Source of the DNA: a bacterium
GTDB lineage: Bacteria; Bacteroidota; Rhodothermia; Balneolales; M1805
Assembly (NCBI GenBank): GCA_006226965.1
Contig: SBGQ01000114.1
Location: forward strand, 1 to 36,008
Length of the DNA stretch: 36,008 bases
Direction: 5' to 3'
Shown here: piece by piece, positions 12,268 to 18,107 of the stretch
Numbering within the stretch: the first letter of the stretch is position 1
Layout: every line of letters begins with the position of its first letter
The notes under the pieces: generated by a model
What the model was told of the DNA's origin: nothing
What the model saw: the letters and a program-made list of their open reading frames with translations, nothing else
Databases searched by the model: none
Position numbers and translations under genes: made by a program

Positions 12268-12477
12268 TTATGAGGAGCAGGAGCCTATCTCTTGTTTTCT
12301 GAGGCAATACATATCGCTATAGATACAAAACACACAACAGTCATTTTTCGACACTTCAATCGGTTTTCCGCAGCTTGCACATGTTGTTGATTTTAAATAA
12401 CCGGTTTCAGGCATTTCTCGTTTTTCTTTAAAACCGCAATGTGGACAGGTAAGAGTAGCTGATGAAAGCTTGAACAT
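12268..12477 (-). CDS. GDCCVxC-type zinc-ribbon small protein
   Basis: A 69-aa cysteine-rich protein. An N-terminal CPHC and a later CASC make a zinc ribbon. The centre reads NDCCVFCIYSDMYC, a variant (Asn for Gly) of the GDCCVxC motif that names a small family with some selenocysteine members. Here all positions are cysteine and the gene ends at TAA, so it is not a selenoprotein. It lies 11 bp after the ligase gene of the PYP operon in the same orientation, so it is probably cotranscribed. Its role is unknown; metal or redox chemistry is a reasonable guess. Confidence 0.75.
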   Translation of the reverse strand: MFKLSSATLTCPHCGFKEKREMPETGYLKSTTCASCGKPIEVSKNDCCVFCIYSDMYCLRKQEIGSCSS

Positions 12478-12488
12478 AAATGATTGAA

Positions 12489-13364
12489 TTATTTGTGAGC
12501 AACCATTGTAATACCTGTTAAAGCGTTACAATTACCTCCGATTTCTTTTTTTCTGCCGGTAATATGGAGGTGATTTTCAGAATCAAGATAACCAATATCT
12601 CCGGTATCATACCATGTGTTTTCTATTGCTGTTAGGGATAATAGGTAAATGGAACCGTTGTCATTAATCTTGATTTTCATGCTTTTATCAGTTAAGCCGA
12701 CATTTTTTATATCATTTGAAGTAAAACTTCCAATCTTTTTTCTGATTTTTGAAATCAAACCACCGGCTTCAGTTTGTCCATACGCTTGAGTTAAAAAGTG
12801 GGTTCGGCGAATTAATGCTTCATAATCCTCGCTAACCAAACTTGCACCGCCGACAATCACTTCATCCACATTCCATTCCTCATTATAGAACATCCGTAAA
12901 GCTCCGGGAACTGTGAAAAGATGAGTTGCTTTCATCGAATTAATTAAAGCAGGTACTTTTTTCAAATCTGAAACATAGGGAACGAAAAAAGCAACTTGTG
13001 CTCCGGCTAGTTGCGCTGCTAAAATCCATGTTAATCCGGCAACATGCCACGGACTTGCAACTATTAAAACATTACTTTGAGTATTAAGTCCAAAAATATC
13101 AATGCTTAATTCGGCATTTAATAAAAGTTTCTTCTTGGTGTTAGCCATCGCTTTCGGAAGTCCGGTACTACCGCTCGAATAAAGTGCAATTTGGGGAGAT
13201 GTTGTATTGATAGGTGAATAGTTCCATTCAATCTGATTGGATTCTACATCTTCGAATCGAGGAGGTATGAATAGATACGAATGTGAGTCCTTAAAAAGAT
13301 TAAGGATATCAGCAGCATGGGTAAAATCTGCCGATGTTTTAGAAATAAATGATTCTTTAATCAT
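12489..13364 (-). CDS. Minimal AMP-forming acyl-CoA ligase-like protein, candidate p-coumarate ligase for PYP
   Basis: A 291-aa member of the adenylate-forming (ANL) superfamily. The ATP-binding loop YSSGSTGLPK lies at residues 62-71, a QAYGQTEAGG motif near 192-201, WYDTGDIGYL near 250, and the hinge-region GRKKE near 271. The protein ends about 16 residues later, so the whole C-terminal subdomain with its catalytic lysine is missing. The N-terminus is also about 100 residues shorter than in 4-coumarate:CoA ligases. It overlaps the 155-aa gene by 4 bp and sits two genes after the PYP gene. PYP needs p-coumaroyl-CoA to load its chromophore, so this is the natural candidate. A MenE-like role is the main alternative. 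The core may still form the acyl-adenylate. Confidence 0.75.
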   Translation of the reverse strand: MIKESFISKTSADFTHAADILNLFKDSHSYLFIPPRFEDVESNQIEWNYSPINTTSPQIALYSSGSTGLPKAMANTKKKLLLNAELSIDIFGLNTQSNVLIVASPWHVAGLTWILAAQLAGAQVAFFVPYVSDLKKVPALINSMKATHLFTVPGALRMFYNEEWNVDEVIVGGASLVSEDYEALIRRTHFLTQAYGQTEAGGLISKIRKKIGSFTSNDIKNVGLTDKSMKIKINDNGSIYLLSLTAIENTWYDTGDIGYLDSENHLHITGRKKEIGGNCNALTGITMVAHK

Positions 13365-13828
13365 GAGTTTGATAAAAAAGTACGATTTACCAGTTGTCTG
13401 ATTTGAGACAAGTTTTGTTCAACGGTATCAGCATCTATCAAAGAGAAAATGGGTTCAAGAAAATAACTGCATACAGCTGATTTGGCTTGGATTAGTTTGT
13501 CATCAAAGGAAGTAATGGAAAGATTGTAATTCGCTAAATGTGTAAAACGAATCCATTCTGATTGAAGTTCAATCCACAAAAAAGCTAATTGCTGCTTTAA
13601 ATGAAAGGTGCATTCTGTAAGGAGTTCTTCATCTTGCTGAACTTCAAAACTGCATAAATAGGATTCGAAAAGCTGTATAAAATTTCGTTGAATTGAGCTA
13701 TGATAACGTTTTAGTTCATATTGATCCGTATCAGAAAGCCTTAACTCCGGTATAAATGAGTCCGCTTCTTGTGTAAAAAGCGGACTCGTCATCAGAGTGT
13801 GAATACGTTGTTTGAACTCCGTAATCAT
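13361..13828 (-). CDS. Unrecognised helical protein in the PYP operon
   Basis: A 155-aa predicted cytoplasmic protein without signal peptide or membrane segment. It appears mostly alpha-helical, with many aromatic residues in amphipathic stretches (YHSSIQRNFIQLFESYL, LAFLWIELQSEWIRF). It contains three cysteines. I recognise no family. It begins 6 bp after the PYP stop and overlaps the ligase start by 4 bp, so it is firmly within the operon, between the photoreceptor and its likely chromophore-activating enzyme. It might be an output partner of PYP or a helper in chromophore loading; the sequence alone does not decide. Confidence 0.72.
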   Translation of the reverse strand: MITEFKQRIHTLMTSPLFTQEADSFIPELRLSDTDQYELKRYHSSIQRNFIQLFESYLCSFEVQQDEELLTECTFHLKQQLAFLWIELQSEWIRFTHLANYNLSITSFDDKLIQAKSAVCSYFLEPIFSLIDADTVEQNLSQIRQLVNRTFLSNS

Positions 13829-13834
13829 AAGCGA

Positions 13835-14224
13835 TTAGATTTTTTTTACTAAAATCCAGTTCGCATTTTTTTTGTCTCGATAAAGGTGTACTCGAACTTT
13901 AGTCGGACTTAATTTGTAAGTAAACACATAATCGAATACGGTATTAAGTAAACCCGATTGTACACCACGATTAAATCTTCCGGAAAAAATAAAGTTATTT
14001 GAACAGGGTGCTACTTCGCTAAAGTAGTTTTTACCAATCACATGCGCTGATTTGAAATCTGCAAAATGTTCGTAGTTGTATTTGTTATACAGTTGAATAG
14101 TACCATTGTCATCAACCTTAACTACACCGAAATTCAGCTTATCCGCCATTTCCGGTGTTAAGAATTCAATCGATTGTAAGATATTTTGTGGTATAAATGG
14201 TGTAATCTGTGCTATTGCATTCAT
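13835..14224 (-). CDS. pyp: Photoactive yellow protein (PYP) blue-light receptor
   Basis: A 129-aa protein close in length to Halorhodospira halophila PYP (125 aa), compared from memory. The whole PAS fold is recognisable: GVVKVDDNGTIQLYNKY, then VIGKNYFSEVAPC, GVQSGLLNTVFDYVFTYKL, SPTKVRVHL and the end WILVKKI. Cys74 in APC matches chromophore-binding Cys69, and Tyr46 matches the phenolate-binding Tyr42. The Glu46 region is changed by a gap (YNKYNYEHFAD), so the equivalent is Asn50 or Glu52. Leu105 replaces Met100. PYP binds p-coumaric acid as a thioester and undergoes a blue-light photocycle. There is a 1-bp gap after the coiled-coil gene and a 6-bp gap before the 155-aa gene. A tyrosine ammonia-lyase gene is not in this window. 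Confidence 0.93.
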   Translation of the reverse strand: MNAIAQITPFIPQNILQSIEFLTPEMADKLNFGVVKVDDNGTIQLYNKYNYEHFADFKSAHVIGKNYFSEVAPCSNNFIFSGRFNRGVQSGLLNTVFDYVFTYKLSPTKVRVHLYRDKKNANWILVKKI

Positions 14225-14225
14225 T

Positions 14226-14399
14226 TTAAGCTTCCTTATTCAAAAGATTAGCGGTTGATTCTTGATAATCAGTTACATAGGTCTGATCCAGATTATCATC
14301 TTTTTCTTTATATAAACTTGTTAGTTGGAGCTCTAAATGATGAACAATTGATTTGAGTTCATCAATTTCAAGCTCGAGTTCTTCTTTAGATTTGCTCAT
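14226..14399 (-). CDS. Short coiled-coil protein, first gene of the PYP operon
   Basis: From the ATG at 14399 this encodes 57 aa beginning MSKSKEELELEIDELK, with a heptad pattern (ELEIDELKSIVHHLELQL) typical of a short coiled coil, then an acidic, polar tail. The frame extends upstream to a TTG at 14447 (73 aa), so that start is possible. It is separated from the PYP gene by a single base, so the two are almost certainly cotranscribed. No family is recognised. A dimerising partner or signalling linker for PYP is a guess based only on position and shape. Confidence 0.65.
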   Translation of the reverse strand: MSKSKEELELEIDELKSIVHHLELQLTSLYKEKDDNLDQTYVTDYQESTANLLNKEA

Positions 14400-14469
14400 A
14401 AGTCTGTAGAGTTTAGATGTTATTTCTAATGGTTCGCCTTTAAACAAGAAGAGATTTTATGGCGTTCAT

Positions 14470-14510
14470 TTTATTTGTTAAAGCTTGTAAGTTCGTGCTT
14501 AACAAATAAA
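14470..14510. promoter_or_regulatory. 12-bp inverted repeat between the PYP operon and the sensor-kinase gene
   Basis: TTTATTTGTTAA (14470-14481) and TTAACAAATAAA (14499-14510) are perfect inverted copies, and the inner AGC/GC bases can extend the pairing with one bulge. The repeat lies in the divergent gap between the PYP operon (minus) and the propeller sensor kinase (plus). Each arm, read towards its own gene, contains TTTATTTG, one base from the Bacteroidota -7 box TAnnTTTG. It could be a shared operator or a symmetric pair of promoter elements. Confidence 0.45.
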
Positions 14511-14565
14511 TACAACGCTTTGTGAATGCATGAACAGATAGCTTAAAAAGCGATATATTCACGAA

Positions 14566-17445
14566 ATGATATTCCGAGCATATACTTTCATCACAAAGCT
14601 GATTTTCTTATTCGCAATTATTCAAAGCTGCAGTATTTCTGTTCTAAATGCTCAAGTGATTCCCTTTAAAACTATTTCTTTAGACGAAGGTTTGTCGCAG
14701 TCGGTAGTACAGGCAATTACTCAAGATAAGTTCGGTTATTTATGGATTGGGACGGAATACGGTTTAAACCGATTTAACGGAAAAAGAGTTGATGCTTTTT
14801 ATCAAACTAACGGATTGCCTTCTAATAACATAACGGAGGTGTATTACGATAATGCAGGCGTTTTATGGGTTGGTACAGACCACGGAGTCGCAACCTATTT
14901 AAATGAACAATTCAACATTTTTGAGGGAACTGATACACTCATTCAAAATCCAATAAATAAAATAATTCACCATCCGGATGGTTCTGTTTGGATTGCAACA
15001 GAAGGCTCCGGAGTTTGGCATTATGACGGACTCGTTTTCGAACGGTGGAATACGGACAATGGGCTGCCTTCCGATTCTGTTCGTGACATTTATTTTGATA
15101 ATGATCGCATAATCTGGATGGCAACGCGAAACGGTGTAGCCTATTTTGATGGAACTGCCATTCGAGTGGTAAATAAAGACGAAGGGTTAAGCGATGAAAA
15201 GGTCCGTTCTTTAACACCGCTAAGTAATTTGAGTCTAATTGCAGGTACCCGAAACGGAATTACATTATTATTTAAAAGTGGAGATAGTGAGCATATTGCC
15301 GTGAATATGCGTAATCAATTGTTGAAGGTGAATCAGGTAATGCTTGATTCTCGTTCACGTATGTGGATTGCTGAGGAATCAGGTTTGTGGCGAATTGACG
15401 ACATCAACAAACCGGCTTTAGAATTAATTTATAACGAAACCTTTGTTTCTTCGGTTTTTGAAGACGCTTCCGGTTCAATATGGTTCGGAACCTTTGGTAA
15501 CGGGGCGCTTCAATATCAGGGTGATGCATTCATAAATTATACAACAGATTCCGGTTTACCCAACGCCGTAGTATCGAGTGTTTATCAAACTAAAGATAAA
15601 GTTACTTGGGTAGGCACTTTTGGCGGCGGTGTACTTCGTATGGCTCCGAACGGAGAGAAACAGGTATTTCAGCGTTCCAATTCCAGTTTAAAAGACAATC
15701 GAATTTTTCACATTATTGAAGATGAATCCAATCGAATTTGGTTTGCTACAAGAAACGGAATTAATCGTTATAAAGAGGGAATCGGCTTACAACAAATACC
15801 CAGAATTCCGAACGATAAATACCGTTTTATTCATCAGGTAAGTCACGATTTATTTTGGTTGGCATCAGAGGAAAACGGCATCTTTTTATGGAACGACCGA
15901 AAACAGACCATAGAGCGCGAAATAACCACGAAAGAGGGCTTAATCAGTAATTCCGTACGTGTAGTTGAGGCTAGTTCCGATGGGCGATTATGGGTAGGAA
16001 CAACAAACGGTATTTCGATGATTGACGGCAAAACGGTAACCAATTACAATTTGGCTACGGGACTCATCAATCAGGTTATTTTGGATATTTTTGAAGGTTG
16101 GGATGGCCGAATATGGTTTGCACATTTTATGGGTTTAAGCTCACTGAATAAAGACGGAACATGGTCGCATTATCCTTTAGAATTTAAGGGTGAACCGCTT
16201 GCAGCTTATGTAGTTAGAGAGTTTGATGATTATCTGTGGGTAGGTACAAATAAAGGTTTGGTGCGATTTAATCACAAACAGAAAAATCCACAGATAAAGT
16301 TCTATACGGCAGACATGGGTTTGGTAAGTGATGAACTCAATAAAGGGTCTATTTTTATTGATACAGAAGGTTATTTCTGGCTTGGTACAATTCGCGGCTT
16401 AAGCAAATTCGACCCCTTACTTCAATATGAAAAGAAAATTCAGGCTACTGTGTTAATTGATGAAATTGAAGCGCAGGGAAAACGTAATGAAGCGTATGAA
16501 AACATAGAACTGGAATACGACGATAATCACTTTGAAATTCATTTTTCGGCGATTACAACTCAAGACCCAAGTACCATTCAGTTCAGATATCGACTACGTG
16601 ATGCCGATCCCGATTGGCAGACAACCTACTCAAATTCCGTTCGCTATGCTGGTCTTCCTGATGGCGATTATCAGTTTCAATTACAAAGTATCAGTAATGA
16701 CGGCATCCAATCGCAAAGTGTGTATGCAAATGTGAAAGTATTACCGCCGTTTTGGAGAGCATCTTGGTTTATTTTCCTGGTGCTTAGTTCTTTGTTTGTA
16801 CTCGCGTATTTAATTGTGAATAACATTCGAGTTTCAAAACAGGTTGAAGTTGAACGAATGCGTGTTCGAATTGCCGGAGATTTACATGATGATGTGGGAG
16901 CTTCGCTCACAGAAATGGCGCTTCAAGCCGATTTTATTCAATCGTATCCATTATCAGACGAAATAAAAGAAACCATGCAGCAATTGGGTGATATGAGCCG
17001 CCAAGTGGTAAATACGATGGATGATATTGTGTGGTCGATTGATGCACGAAACGATACAGTTGGAGATTTAACCGACCGGATTCAGGATTTTGCAAATCAG
17101 ATTTTATCGAGAACAGCTATTCAGATTTATTATCATTTTGATTTACGTGATGAAAAACGCACCATACATGCTGATACGCGTCAAAATGTATATTTAATTT
17201 GTAAAGAGGCGGTTAACAATGCTGTCAAATATTCTGAAGCCACAGAAATACACCTCAGTTTGCGCCACGATAAAAACGCATGCATCTTAGAAATAAAAGA
17301 CAATGGAAAAGGGCTGCCGGAATCTGGGAAAAAAACGGGGCATGGACTCAAAAACATGCAACTTCGCGCAAAACGTCTGCAAGCAAATCTGGAGTTTATT
17401 TCTGATAAGGGACTTACCGTTAGATTAACTAACTTAAAGCTATGA
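14566..17445 (+). CDS. Propeller-sensor histidine kinase (Reg_prop / Y_Y_Y / HisKA_3)
   Basis: A 959-aa membrane sensor kinase. After a signal peptide (about residues 1-29, ending VLNAQ) come many two-component regulator propeller repeats (GYLWIGTEYGLNRFNG, LWVGTDHGVA, VWIATEGSGVW, IIWMATRNGVAYFDG) forming a large periplasmic beta-propeller sensor to about residue 630. A Y_Y_Y-type domain (about 650-725) and one transmembrane helix (about 731-753) follow. The cytoplasmic part has a HisKA_3 dimerisation domain with phospho-acceptor His774 in RIAGDLHDDVGAS. The ATPase domain carries an N-box (KEAVNNAVKYSEAT) and a G-box (DNGKGLPESG, GHGLKNM). There is no fused receiver. It overlaps its response regulator by 4 bp. 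The ligand is unknown; such sensors in Bacteroidota often detect carbohydrates. Confidence 0.92.
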   Translation: MIFRAYTFITKLIFLFAIIQSCSISVLNAQVIPFKTISLDEGLSQSVVQAITQDKFGYLWIGTEYGLNRFNGKRVDAFYQTNGLPSNNITEVYYDNAGVLWVGTDHGVATYLNEQFNIFEGTDTLIQNPINKIIHHPDGSVWIATEGSGVWHYDGLVFERWNTDNGLPSDSVRDIYFDNDRIIWMATRNGVAYFDGTAIRVVNKDEGLSDEKVRSLTPLSNLSLIAGTRNGITLLFKSGDSEHIAVNMRNQLLKVNQVMLDSRSRMWIAEESGLWRIDDINKPALELIYNETFVSSVFEDASGSIWFGTFGNGALQYQGDAFINYTTDSGLPNAVVSSVYQTKDKVTWVGTFGGGVLRMAPNGEKQVFQRSNSSLKDNRIFHIIEDESNRIWFATRNGINRYKEGIGLQQIPRIPNDKYRFIHQVSHDLFWLASEENGIFLWNDRKQTIEREITTKEGLISNSVRVVEASSDGRLWVGTTNGISMIDGKTVTNYNLATGLINQVILDIFEGWDGRIWFAHFMGLSSLNKDGTWSHYPLEFKGEPLAAYVVREFDDYLWVGTNKGLVRFNHKQKNPQIKFYTADMGLVSDELNKGSIFIDTEGYFWLGTIRGLSKFDPLLQYEKKIQATVLIDEIEAQGKRNEAYENIELEYDDNHFEIHFSAITTQDPSTIQFRYRLRDADPDWQTTYSNSVRYAGLPDGDYQFQLQSISNDGIQSQSVYANVKVLPPFWRASWFIFLVLSSLFVLAYLIVNNIRVSKQVEVERMRVRIAGDLHDDVGASLTEMALQADFIQSYPLSDEIKETMQQLGDMSRQVVNTMDDIVWSIDARNDTVGDLTDRIQDFANQILSRTAIQIYYHFDLRDEKRTIHADTRQNVYLICKEAVNNAVKYSEATEIHLSLRHDKNACILEIKDNGKGLPESGKKTGHGLKNMQLRAKRLQANLEFISDKGLTVRLTNLKL

Positions 17446-18107
17446 AAGAGATTTCCATCATAGAAGACAACGAGAAAATCAGAACACTGATTCAGAAGTT
17501 TTTAGATAATCAGCCTGAGTTTACCTGCACCCGAGTATTTGATGCCGTTGAGCCTTTTTTACAAGAACTCAAAACAAAAACGCATCCGAATGTGGTGCTG
17601 ATGGATATCGATTTACCCGGAATGAACGGTATAGAAGGGATGAAACTGATAAAATCTCAATATCCGAACATTGAAATCATCATGCTTACGATTTACCACG
17701 ATTCGCATAAAATTTTTGATTCTCTTTGTGCCGGTGCATCAGGTTACTTATTAAAACACACGTCTTTACCGGAAATTAAAGAATCCATCGAAGTGGTTTT
17801 AAATGGCGGTTCTGTGATGTCGCCACAAATCGCCCGCAAAGTAATGACCTATTTCAGTTCGAGCGGACACACTCCTGATTTGAGCAAAGAAGCAAAAGAA
17901 GCAGACAAAAATGCAGAAAATGAACTCACCATGCGTGAACGAGAAATCGTAATTGGTTTAGTTGATGGACTGAGTTATAAAATGATTGGCGACAGAATGG
18001 ATATTTCACTCGATACGGTGAGAGCACATATTCGAAATATTTATCGCAAATTACACGTGAATTCGAAAGCCGAAGTAATCGCAAAATCGTTACGCGGCGA
18101 GATTTAA
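17442..18107 (+). CDS. NarL/LuxR-family response regulator
   Basis: A 221-aa two-domain regulator. The N-terminal receiver has the acidic pair Glu8-Asp9, phospho-acceptor Asp55 in VLMDIDLPGMNG, and the conserved lysine in GYLLKHTS. The C-terminal LuxR-type helix-turn-helix reads LTMREREIVIGLVDG, then DISLDTVRAHIRNIYRKL. The ATGA overlap with the kinase gene makes the partnership clear. Phosphorylation should promote DNA binding as a dimer, usually to short inverted repeats. The inverted repeat upstream of the kinase is a candidate site, which is inference. The gene is convergent with fmt, with 43 bp between them. Confidence 0.92.
   Translation: MKEISIIEDNEKIRTLIQKFLDNQPEFTCTRVFDAVEPFLQELKTKTHPNVVLMDIDLPGMNGIEGMKLIKSQYPNIEIIMLTIYHDSHKIFDSLCAGASGYLLKHTSLPEIKESIEVVLNGGSVMSPQIARKVMTYFSSSGHTPDLSKEAKEADKNAENELTMREREIVIGLVDGLSYKMIGDRMDISLDTVRAHIRNIYRKLHVNSKAEVIAKSLRGEI

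Follow-up and report, generated by a model that had tools for sequence, protein, structure and literature searches.

A Balneolales photoactive yellow protein operon and a conserved set of unnamed candidate partners on one side of the PYP family

Photoactive yellow protein (PYP) is among the most studied photoreceptors, yet its downstream partner is called unknown in the two large surveys of 789 (PMC9664959) and 984 PYPs (PMC12826048). We report that the PYP genes of one side of the tree are accompanied by a conserved set of unnamed partners; this set is the surprising result, the PYP from which we started being a member of a known family. The partners are a helical domain of about 105 amino acids, here called p155, and a coiled coil with an LY motif. 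Their presence along one whole PYP branch in about ten phyla, together with occasional fusions to chemotaxis kinases, makes them strong candidates for the proteins by which the light signal is read, and the old open question of PYP signalling thereby becomes testable. We consider it fairly likely that the operon described below is a blue-light signalling module, in which p155 passes the signal of PYP to a kinase and the LY coiled coil serves as dock or scaffold.

The window, the whole stretch of 36,008 nt that was analysed and to which all coordinates refer, is from contig SBGQ01000114.1 (GCA_006226965.1) of a member of the Balneolales. A preceding reading of the sequence alone (the sequence-only reading) had described a unit of five genes with gaps of 11 bp or less, or overlaps, and all five open reading frames lie on the minus strand where it had placed them. 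The unit and its surroundings comprise the following features, with the basis of the assignment in brackets:

14226..14447, minus strand: 73-aa coiled-coil protein with one LY motif (ExQLxxLYxEK), TTG start
14301..14336, minus strand: the LY motif L-E-L-Q-L-T-S-L-Y-K-E-K (motif and repeat models)
13835..14224, minus strand: photoactive yellow protein (PYP), 129 aa (TIGR02373, PYPs in the PDB, tree)
14003..14005, minus strand: codon of Cys74, equivalent to Cys69 (chromophore attachment), in APCSNN (alignment)
14075..14077, minus strand: codon of Asn50 at the position of Glu46, the proton donor in model PYP (alignment of 80+ PYPs)
13361..13828, minus strand: 155-aa all-helical protein with the PYP-associated domain p155 (profile, hold-out, co-occurrence, AlphaFold2)
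12489..13364, minus strand: 291-aa AMP-binding ligase without C-terminal lid domain (PF00501, motifs)
12268..12477, minus strand: 69-aa GDCCVxC protein (zinc-ribbon, seleno-type), co-directional (NF041374)
14448..14565, no strand: intergenic stretch of 118 bp between the PYP operon and the divergent kinase gene (coordinates)
14566..17445, plus strand: divergent beta-propeller (Reg_prop, Y_Y_Y) HisKA_3/HATPase_c kinase, 959 aa (family matches)
17442..18107, plus strand: LuxR-type response regulator, partner of the 959-aa kinase (family matches)

The 73-aa gene ends 1 bp before the PYP gene, which is followed after 6 bp by the 155-aa gene; this overlaps the ligase gene by 4 bp, and 11 bp separate the ligase gene from the 69-aa gene. 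For the 73-aa gene there is an alternative ATG at 14399, from which a protein of 57 aa would be made. When 84,980 species genomes were searched with an alignment of PYPs, 79 loci emerged; the best (L043, from a metagenome-assembled genome) is a second Balneolales operon, in which the genes for coiled coil, PYP, p155, ligase and aromatic ammonia-lyase follow one another. Comparison of gene neighbourhoods thus shows that the core order coiled coil, PYP, 155-aa gene and ligase is common to both operons. A scan of a viral collection retrieved no PYP relatives. The earlier statement that PYP is known from proteobacteria and Salinibacter falls short, many more phyla being on record (PMC12826048, PMC9664959).

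That the 129-aa product is a PYP, as had been claimed, was borne out by a match of its residues 13-129 to TIGR02373 (photo_yellow; E 6.1e-30) and by its best PDB matches, which are all PYPs (E 1.6e-24). Ordinary PAS domains had been named as the competing assignment, and the generic Pfam PAS model reaches only E 0.041, far weaker than the PYP profile. The TIGR02373 score of 103.9 bits lies under the curated equivalog cut-off of 143.05 bits, which is passed by none of the 296 genomes of the window's phylum and under which all sampled PYPs of the second side of the tree fall; the model covers just a fraction of PYPs (PMC9664959). A genome-wide profile search found no second PYP-profile match in the window's genome, and a generic PAS search found 31 ordinary PAS domains there. 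In the PYP tree the protein pairs with that of L043 (98/98) on the side that carries p155. Judged from its sequence, it is a real PYP and a slightly odd new member of the known family.

The sequence-only reading had suspected unrecognised partners in the operon, and indeed both p155 and the LY family recur beside PYP. The 155-aa protein, our first example of p155, has relatives directly beside PYP in other phyla (phmmer), and a refined profile retrieved from the 14,065 open reading frames of the PYP loci 32 at E < 1e-24 and nothing weaker (best-domain scores). These come from 26 of the 79 PYP loci, where the distance between p155 and PYP is at most about 6 kb, from the window and from two further loci. 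Because iteration can inflate scores, whole groups were held out of the profile. Without Balneolales, p155 of the window was recovered at E 5e-8 and that of L043 at 5e-16; loci of the Rhodothermota type, when held out, scored 1e-18 to 1e-25, and kinases of the Bdellovibrionota type 5e-18 or better, with zero matches to non-members in all hold-outs. The window's 155-aa protein has no match in Pfam and NCBIfam, 31 members of the family have only scattered weak ones, and a sequence match of p155 in the PDB was not found. Neither p155 nor the LY repeat is mentioned in the main texts of the two surveys, whose supplements may list a protein equal to p155 as an unnamed 'hypothetical protein'. AlphaFold2 predicts p155 with confidence (mean pLDDT 93.4) to be all-helical, and a fold search of this model against the PDB gave no usable match (best E 0.31). 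Trp92 is invariant in the family and Asn96 and Glu128 are nearly so; the window's protein is a divergent member, with Thr at Asn96 and Phe at Glu128. An assignment as Hpt or histidine-kinase dimerisation domain was rejected, there being no conserved phosphoryl-accepting His.

Across genomes p155 and PYP co-occur. The PYP tree splits at 100/100 into a p155 side and a classical side. Among the 47 genomes of the PYP loci p155 was detected in 27, linked to PYP or not, namely in 27 of the 28 genomes of the one side and in none of the 19 of the classical side. Since 16 of these 27 genomes had supplied the profile, the other eleven are the independent part of the evidence. Three samples had not been picked for p155. 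In the window's phylum (296 genomes) PYP (E < 1e-20) is found in 6 and p155 in 8, the latter in 6/6 PYP genomes versus 2/290 others; in Bdellovibrionota both are present in the same 5 of 58 genomes; and in Leptospiraceae p155 occurs in 2/3 PYP genomes versus 0/10 others, one PYP-bearing genome being without it. Fisher tests gave 3e-11 for the window's phylum and 2e-7 for Bdellovibrionota, treating related genomes as independent, and because the lineages are related the counts are not independent events. In two genomes (G275 and G283) p155 is encoded far from PYP and the co-occurrence is therefore no neighbourhood effect. The PYP-p155 claim has its limits, however: in Myxococcota p155 was found in just 1 of 14 PYP genomes, and it was not detected with some myxobacterial PYPs that carry the APCxNN signature. 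The PYPs of Salinibacter ruber and Leptospira biflexa (clade B of PMC9664959) are on the same tree side as that of the window, and in Salinibacter loci, too, a p155 gene lies beside or near PYP; for Leptospira the surveys name an adjoining chemoreceptor, their main texts containing neither p155 nor the LY repeat. The PYP of Halorhodospira halophila (pyp-pCL-TAL operon) is on the other side, p155 being absent from all classical-side genomes tested; like the window's protein it is a PAS-type receptor with the Cys, the Tyr and a ligase in the operon, but the two are 36% identical and the window has Asn at Glu46.

Two of the 296 genomes of the window's phylum, both of one genus (G046 and G127), harbor p155 without PYP. 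As a separate observation, two genomes of the Kapaibacteria type contain an unlinked p155 gene followed by the same large open reading frame (L162:6690-9019 and L163:6954-9115; 580 and 564 aa), whose product looks from its sequence like a C-terminal processing protease.

What p155 might do is indicated by its fusions. In L049/L058, L063, L082 and L086 it is the C-terminal part of Hpt-HATPase_c(-CheW) kinases encoded directly upstream of PYP; the kinase core of L086 matches the NCBI CheA models with E 8.5e-61, under their curated cut-offs. In L050, L053 and L097 p155 precedes one common, degenerate ATPase-CheW-like region, and in L078 and L065 another common degenerate region of this kind follows it. 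In the two PYP-less genomes, which are of the window's order, p155 (L164:3417-3842, L165:6819-7322) is encoded beside a membrane HisKA/HATPase_c kinase. The fusions to CheA-like kinases and ATPase-CheW regions lead us to regard p155 as a domain that receives a signal, not as a loading factor. A link of PYP to the chemotaxis apparatus has precedents. Ppr of Rhodospirillum centenum, a PYP-phytochrome-kinase, binds CheW (PMC2993699) but is a covalent fusion to phytochrome and kinase for which no p155 domain is reported; the MCP-PYP fusions (PMC12826048), like our proposal, let PYP feed the CheA pathway but via the receptor, whereas p155 is a domain on the kinase itself. In Bdellovibrionota the genes for CheA-p155 and PYP are repeatedly accompanied by genes for further unannotated proteins, each roughly 165 aa long (L063:8380-8874, L086:8363-8878, L049:5129-5623, L086:5154-5657); those scanned have no Pfam match.

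From these findings we propose the following mechanism. Tyrosine ammonia-lyase, in this genome unlinked, and the linked ligase would supply activated p-coumarate to Cys74 of apo-PYP, and light would alter the shape of the protein. The dedicated reader p155 would sense the state of PYP and control a histidine kinase, CheA-like or other, acting in cis where it is part of a CheA-like kinase, as in Bdellovibrionota and others, and in trans where it stands alone, which is the case in the window. The LY coiled coil, encoded just upstream of PYP or fused to its N-terminus, would be dock or scaffold. We infer that p155 binds PYP physically and that the signal runs from the receptor to the kinase; as to the kinase used in this genome and the biological output, none of the five genes of the operon encodes an output kinase, the genome has several CheA/CheW loci, and the divergent 959-aa beta-propeller kinase is possibly the output or a regulator. 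A single domain family is thus predicted to serve one side of the PYP family as partner, a prediction that the p155-CheA fusions make directly testable in vitro; if it is true, a concrete route from light to kinase and new optogenetic parts would be at hand.

The alternative that survives best, which we nevertheless regard as unlikely, is that p155 does not read the signal and is instead a chaperone or helper for the attachment of p-coumarate to PYP. Such an assembly factor would track the presence of PYP as p155 does, and the p155 gene of the window, L043 and L117 is found next to genes for ligase and ammonia-lyase. It would hardly be expected to be fused to CheA-like kinases and degenerate ATPase-CheW regions or to neighbour a HisKA kinase where PYP is absent; furthermore, the domain has no conserved Cys or His, and classical PYPs are loaded without it.

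Improbable, too, is that PYP, LY protein and p155 merely spread together as a historical cassette, p155 being a general kinase-side domain with no contact to PYP. The patchy distribution over about ten phyla does suggest horizontal transfer, and the two genomes with p155 and no PYP fit with it. However, p155 stays with PYP even where the two genes are found on separate contigs or at a distance of 100 kb, as is the case in some genomes, and a kinase domain that stands on its own should turn up in far more PYP-less genomes.

The second candidate partner, the 73-aa coiled-coil protein, has no Pfam match above cut-off, and a plain iterated profile of it drifted to generic coiled coils, for which reason it was replaced by motif and repeat-unit models. 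The motif ExQLxxLYxEK occurs in 51 of the 14,065 open reading frames of the PYP loci, nearly all of them adjoining PYPs that fall on the p155 side. A profile of the repeat unit (two motifs 32-33 residues apart) found at E < 1e-3 35 open reading frames adjacent to PYP and 1 elsewhere; the window's protein, with its single motif, reaches only E 0.014. With a motif model trained without the window and L043 the 73-aa gene ranks 36 among 13,121 open reading frames, scoring 28 versus -0.2 for the next one of the window; the coiled coil of L043 was not distinguished by this model. In loci of the Oligoflexus type PYP itself carries the LY motif at its N-terminus, and one such fusion is predicted to form a helical hairpin (pLDDT about 65-82). 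In relatives of Salinibacter the repeat has multiplied, giving proteins as long as 1,266 aa, which end in a PYP-like domain with Ser, Gly or Ala in place of the chromophore Cys:

L061:3787-7584, L066:3045-6533, L069:4721-7603, L072:5167-7857: giant LY proteins, directly upstream of a normal PYP

An interpretation of these giant proteins as chemoreceptors was dropped, their profile matches being just generic coiled coil and the C-terminal Cys-less PYP domain.

The sequence-only reading had ascribed to the window's PYP the full signature of the family, and here it went too far. In the alignment Cys74 in APC corresponds to the chromophore cysteine Cys69 and Tyr46 to Tyr42, which hydrogen-bonds the chromophore, so both residues are kept as it had said; the Glu46 position, four residues past the Tyr, is occupied by Asn50. 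L043 has Cys there and the other Cys-bearing PYPs among the 80-odd aligned homologues have Glu. Across PYPs this position is Glu in 97.1% and Gln in 2.6% (PMC12826048), and the surveys define a functional PYP by Cys69, Glu46 (or Gln) being usual and not defining. A one-residue insertion after the helix bearing Asn50 means that the local structure may differ and could compensate. The photocycle of this PYP could be altered or absent, and the protein would offer a natural experiment on how PYP chemistry works when Glu46 is missing. It might even no longer be a photoreceptor, having become a redox or ligand sensor with the same partners. We think this rather unlikely, since Cys74 and Tyr46 are retained, as are the ligase in both Balneolales operons and the lyase in L043. 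For such a change speak the Asn of the window and the Cys of L043 at a position that is Glu or Gln in 99.7% of surveyed PYPs (PMC12826048), the lack of the usual Glu128 in p155 of both, and the proposal of neofunctionalised PYPs in PMC9664959. That the two Balneolales PYPs are without Glu46 and their p155 proteins without Glu128 is possibly a joint change in one lineage.

The linked adenylate-forming ligase had been put forward as a candidate for activating the chromophore; this 291-aa protein belongs to the AMP-binding enzymes (PF00501, E 1.4e-21), with the ANL adenylation core motifs SSGSTGLPK, YGQTE and YDTGD, which it has in common with p-coumarate:CoA ligases (4CL, menE-like ANL). It ends about 22 residues past the GR motif (GRKKE), the terminal residues being GRKKEIGGNCNALTGITMVAHK. 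In ANL enzymes the usual two-step CoA reaction depends on a C-terminal lid, where the catalytic A10 lysine is normally found and which forms the CoA site. The two Balneolales ligases, unlike 4CL and menE-like enzymes, are without this lid and its A10 lysine; several other PYP ligases, those of L063 and L086 among them, continue into it. Window and L043 ligases are 41% identical and share the ending GNCNxLTxxTxxxHK, so the truncation is conserved and the gene is not broken. Since lysine and CoA site reside in the lid, the lidless candidate ligase may work more simply, and we speculate that it hands p-coumaroyl-AMP to apo-PYP, which, if the enzyme works, would be a simpler way to load the chromophore.

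The system had also been called self-contained, which found no support, the operon having neither ammonia-lyase nor output kinase. The recommended search of the genome for a tyrosine ammonia-lyase turned up a candidate on another contig. There are two aromatic lyases, one of which (L122) lies between hut genes. The other (L123; PF00221, E 1.7e-107) is 44% identical to the lyase of the L043 pyp operon, with which it shares QQL where HutH has LSH, and its best PDB match is 2o6y, which we take to be the tyrosine ammonia-lyase of R. sphaeroides.

All parts can be joined into one reading, which is possible but less likely than not: about half of the sampled PYP tree would signal via p155, by which light input would reach CheA-like kinases directly, and via an LY coiled coil expanded to scaffolds of about 1,200 residues that end in chromophore-less PYP domains; the lidless Balneolales ligase would use p-coumaroyl-AMP, with no CoA step, for direct acylation of apo-PYP; and the receptor would work without Glu46.

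The neighbours of PYP given in PMC9664959 and PMC12826048 are ligases, TAL, GGDEF/EAL proteins, kinases and chemoreceptors, and a linked ligase is well known from about 30% of pyp operons (PMC12826048, PMC9664959). That ours is an ordinary PYP-ligase operon filled up with lineage-specific genes is very improbable and already contradicted by the recurrence of p155 and LY families beside PYP in many phyla, even though PYP-ligase linkage is common and the fifth gene seems incidental. The 69-aa product of this gene is a member of the GDCCVxC family (NF041374, E 9.9e-15, 54.5 bits versus a cut-off of 40) with no counterpart in the other PYP loci (79 scanned), and its link to PYP function is doubtful. 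In a Spartobacteria locus (L117:2618-6866) the genes are arranged in the order PYP, aromatic lyase, p155 and AMP ligase, with p155 inside the chromophore operon.
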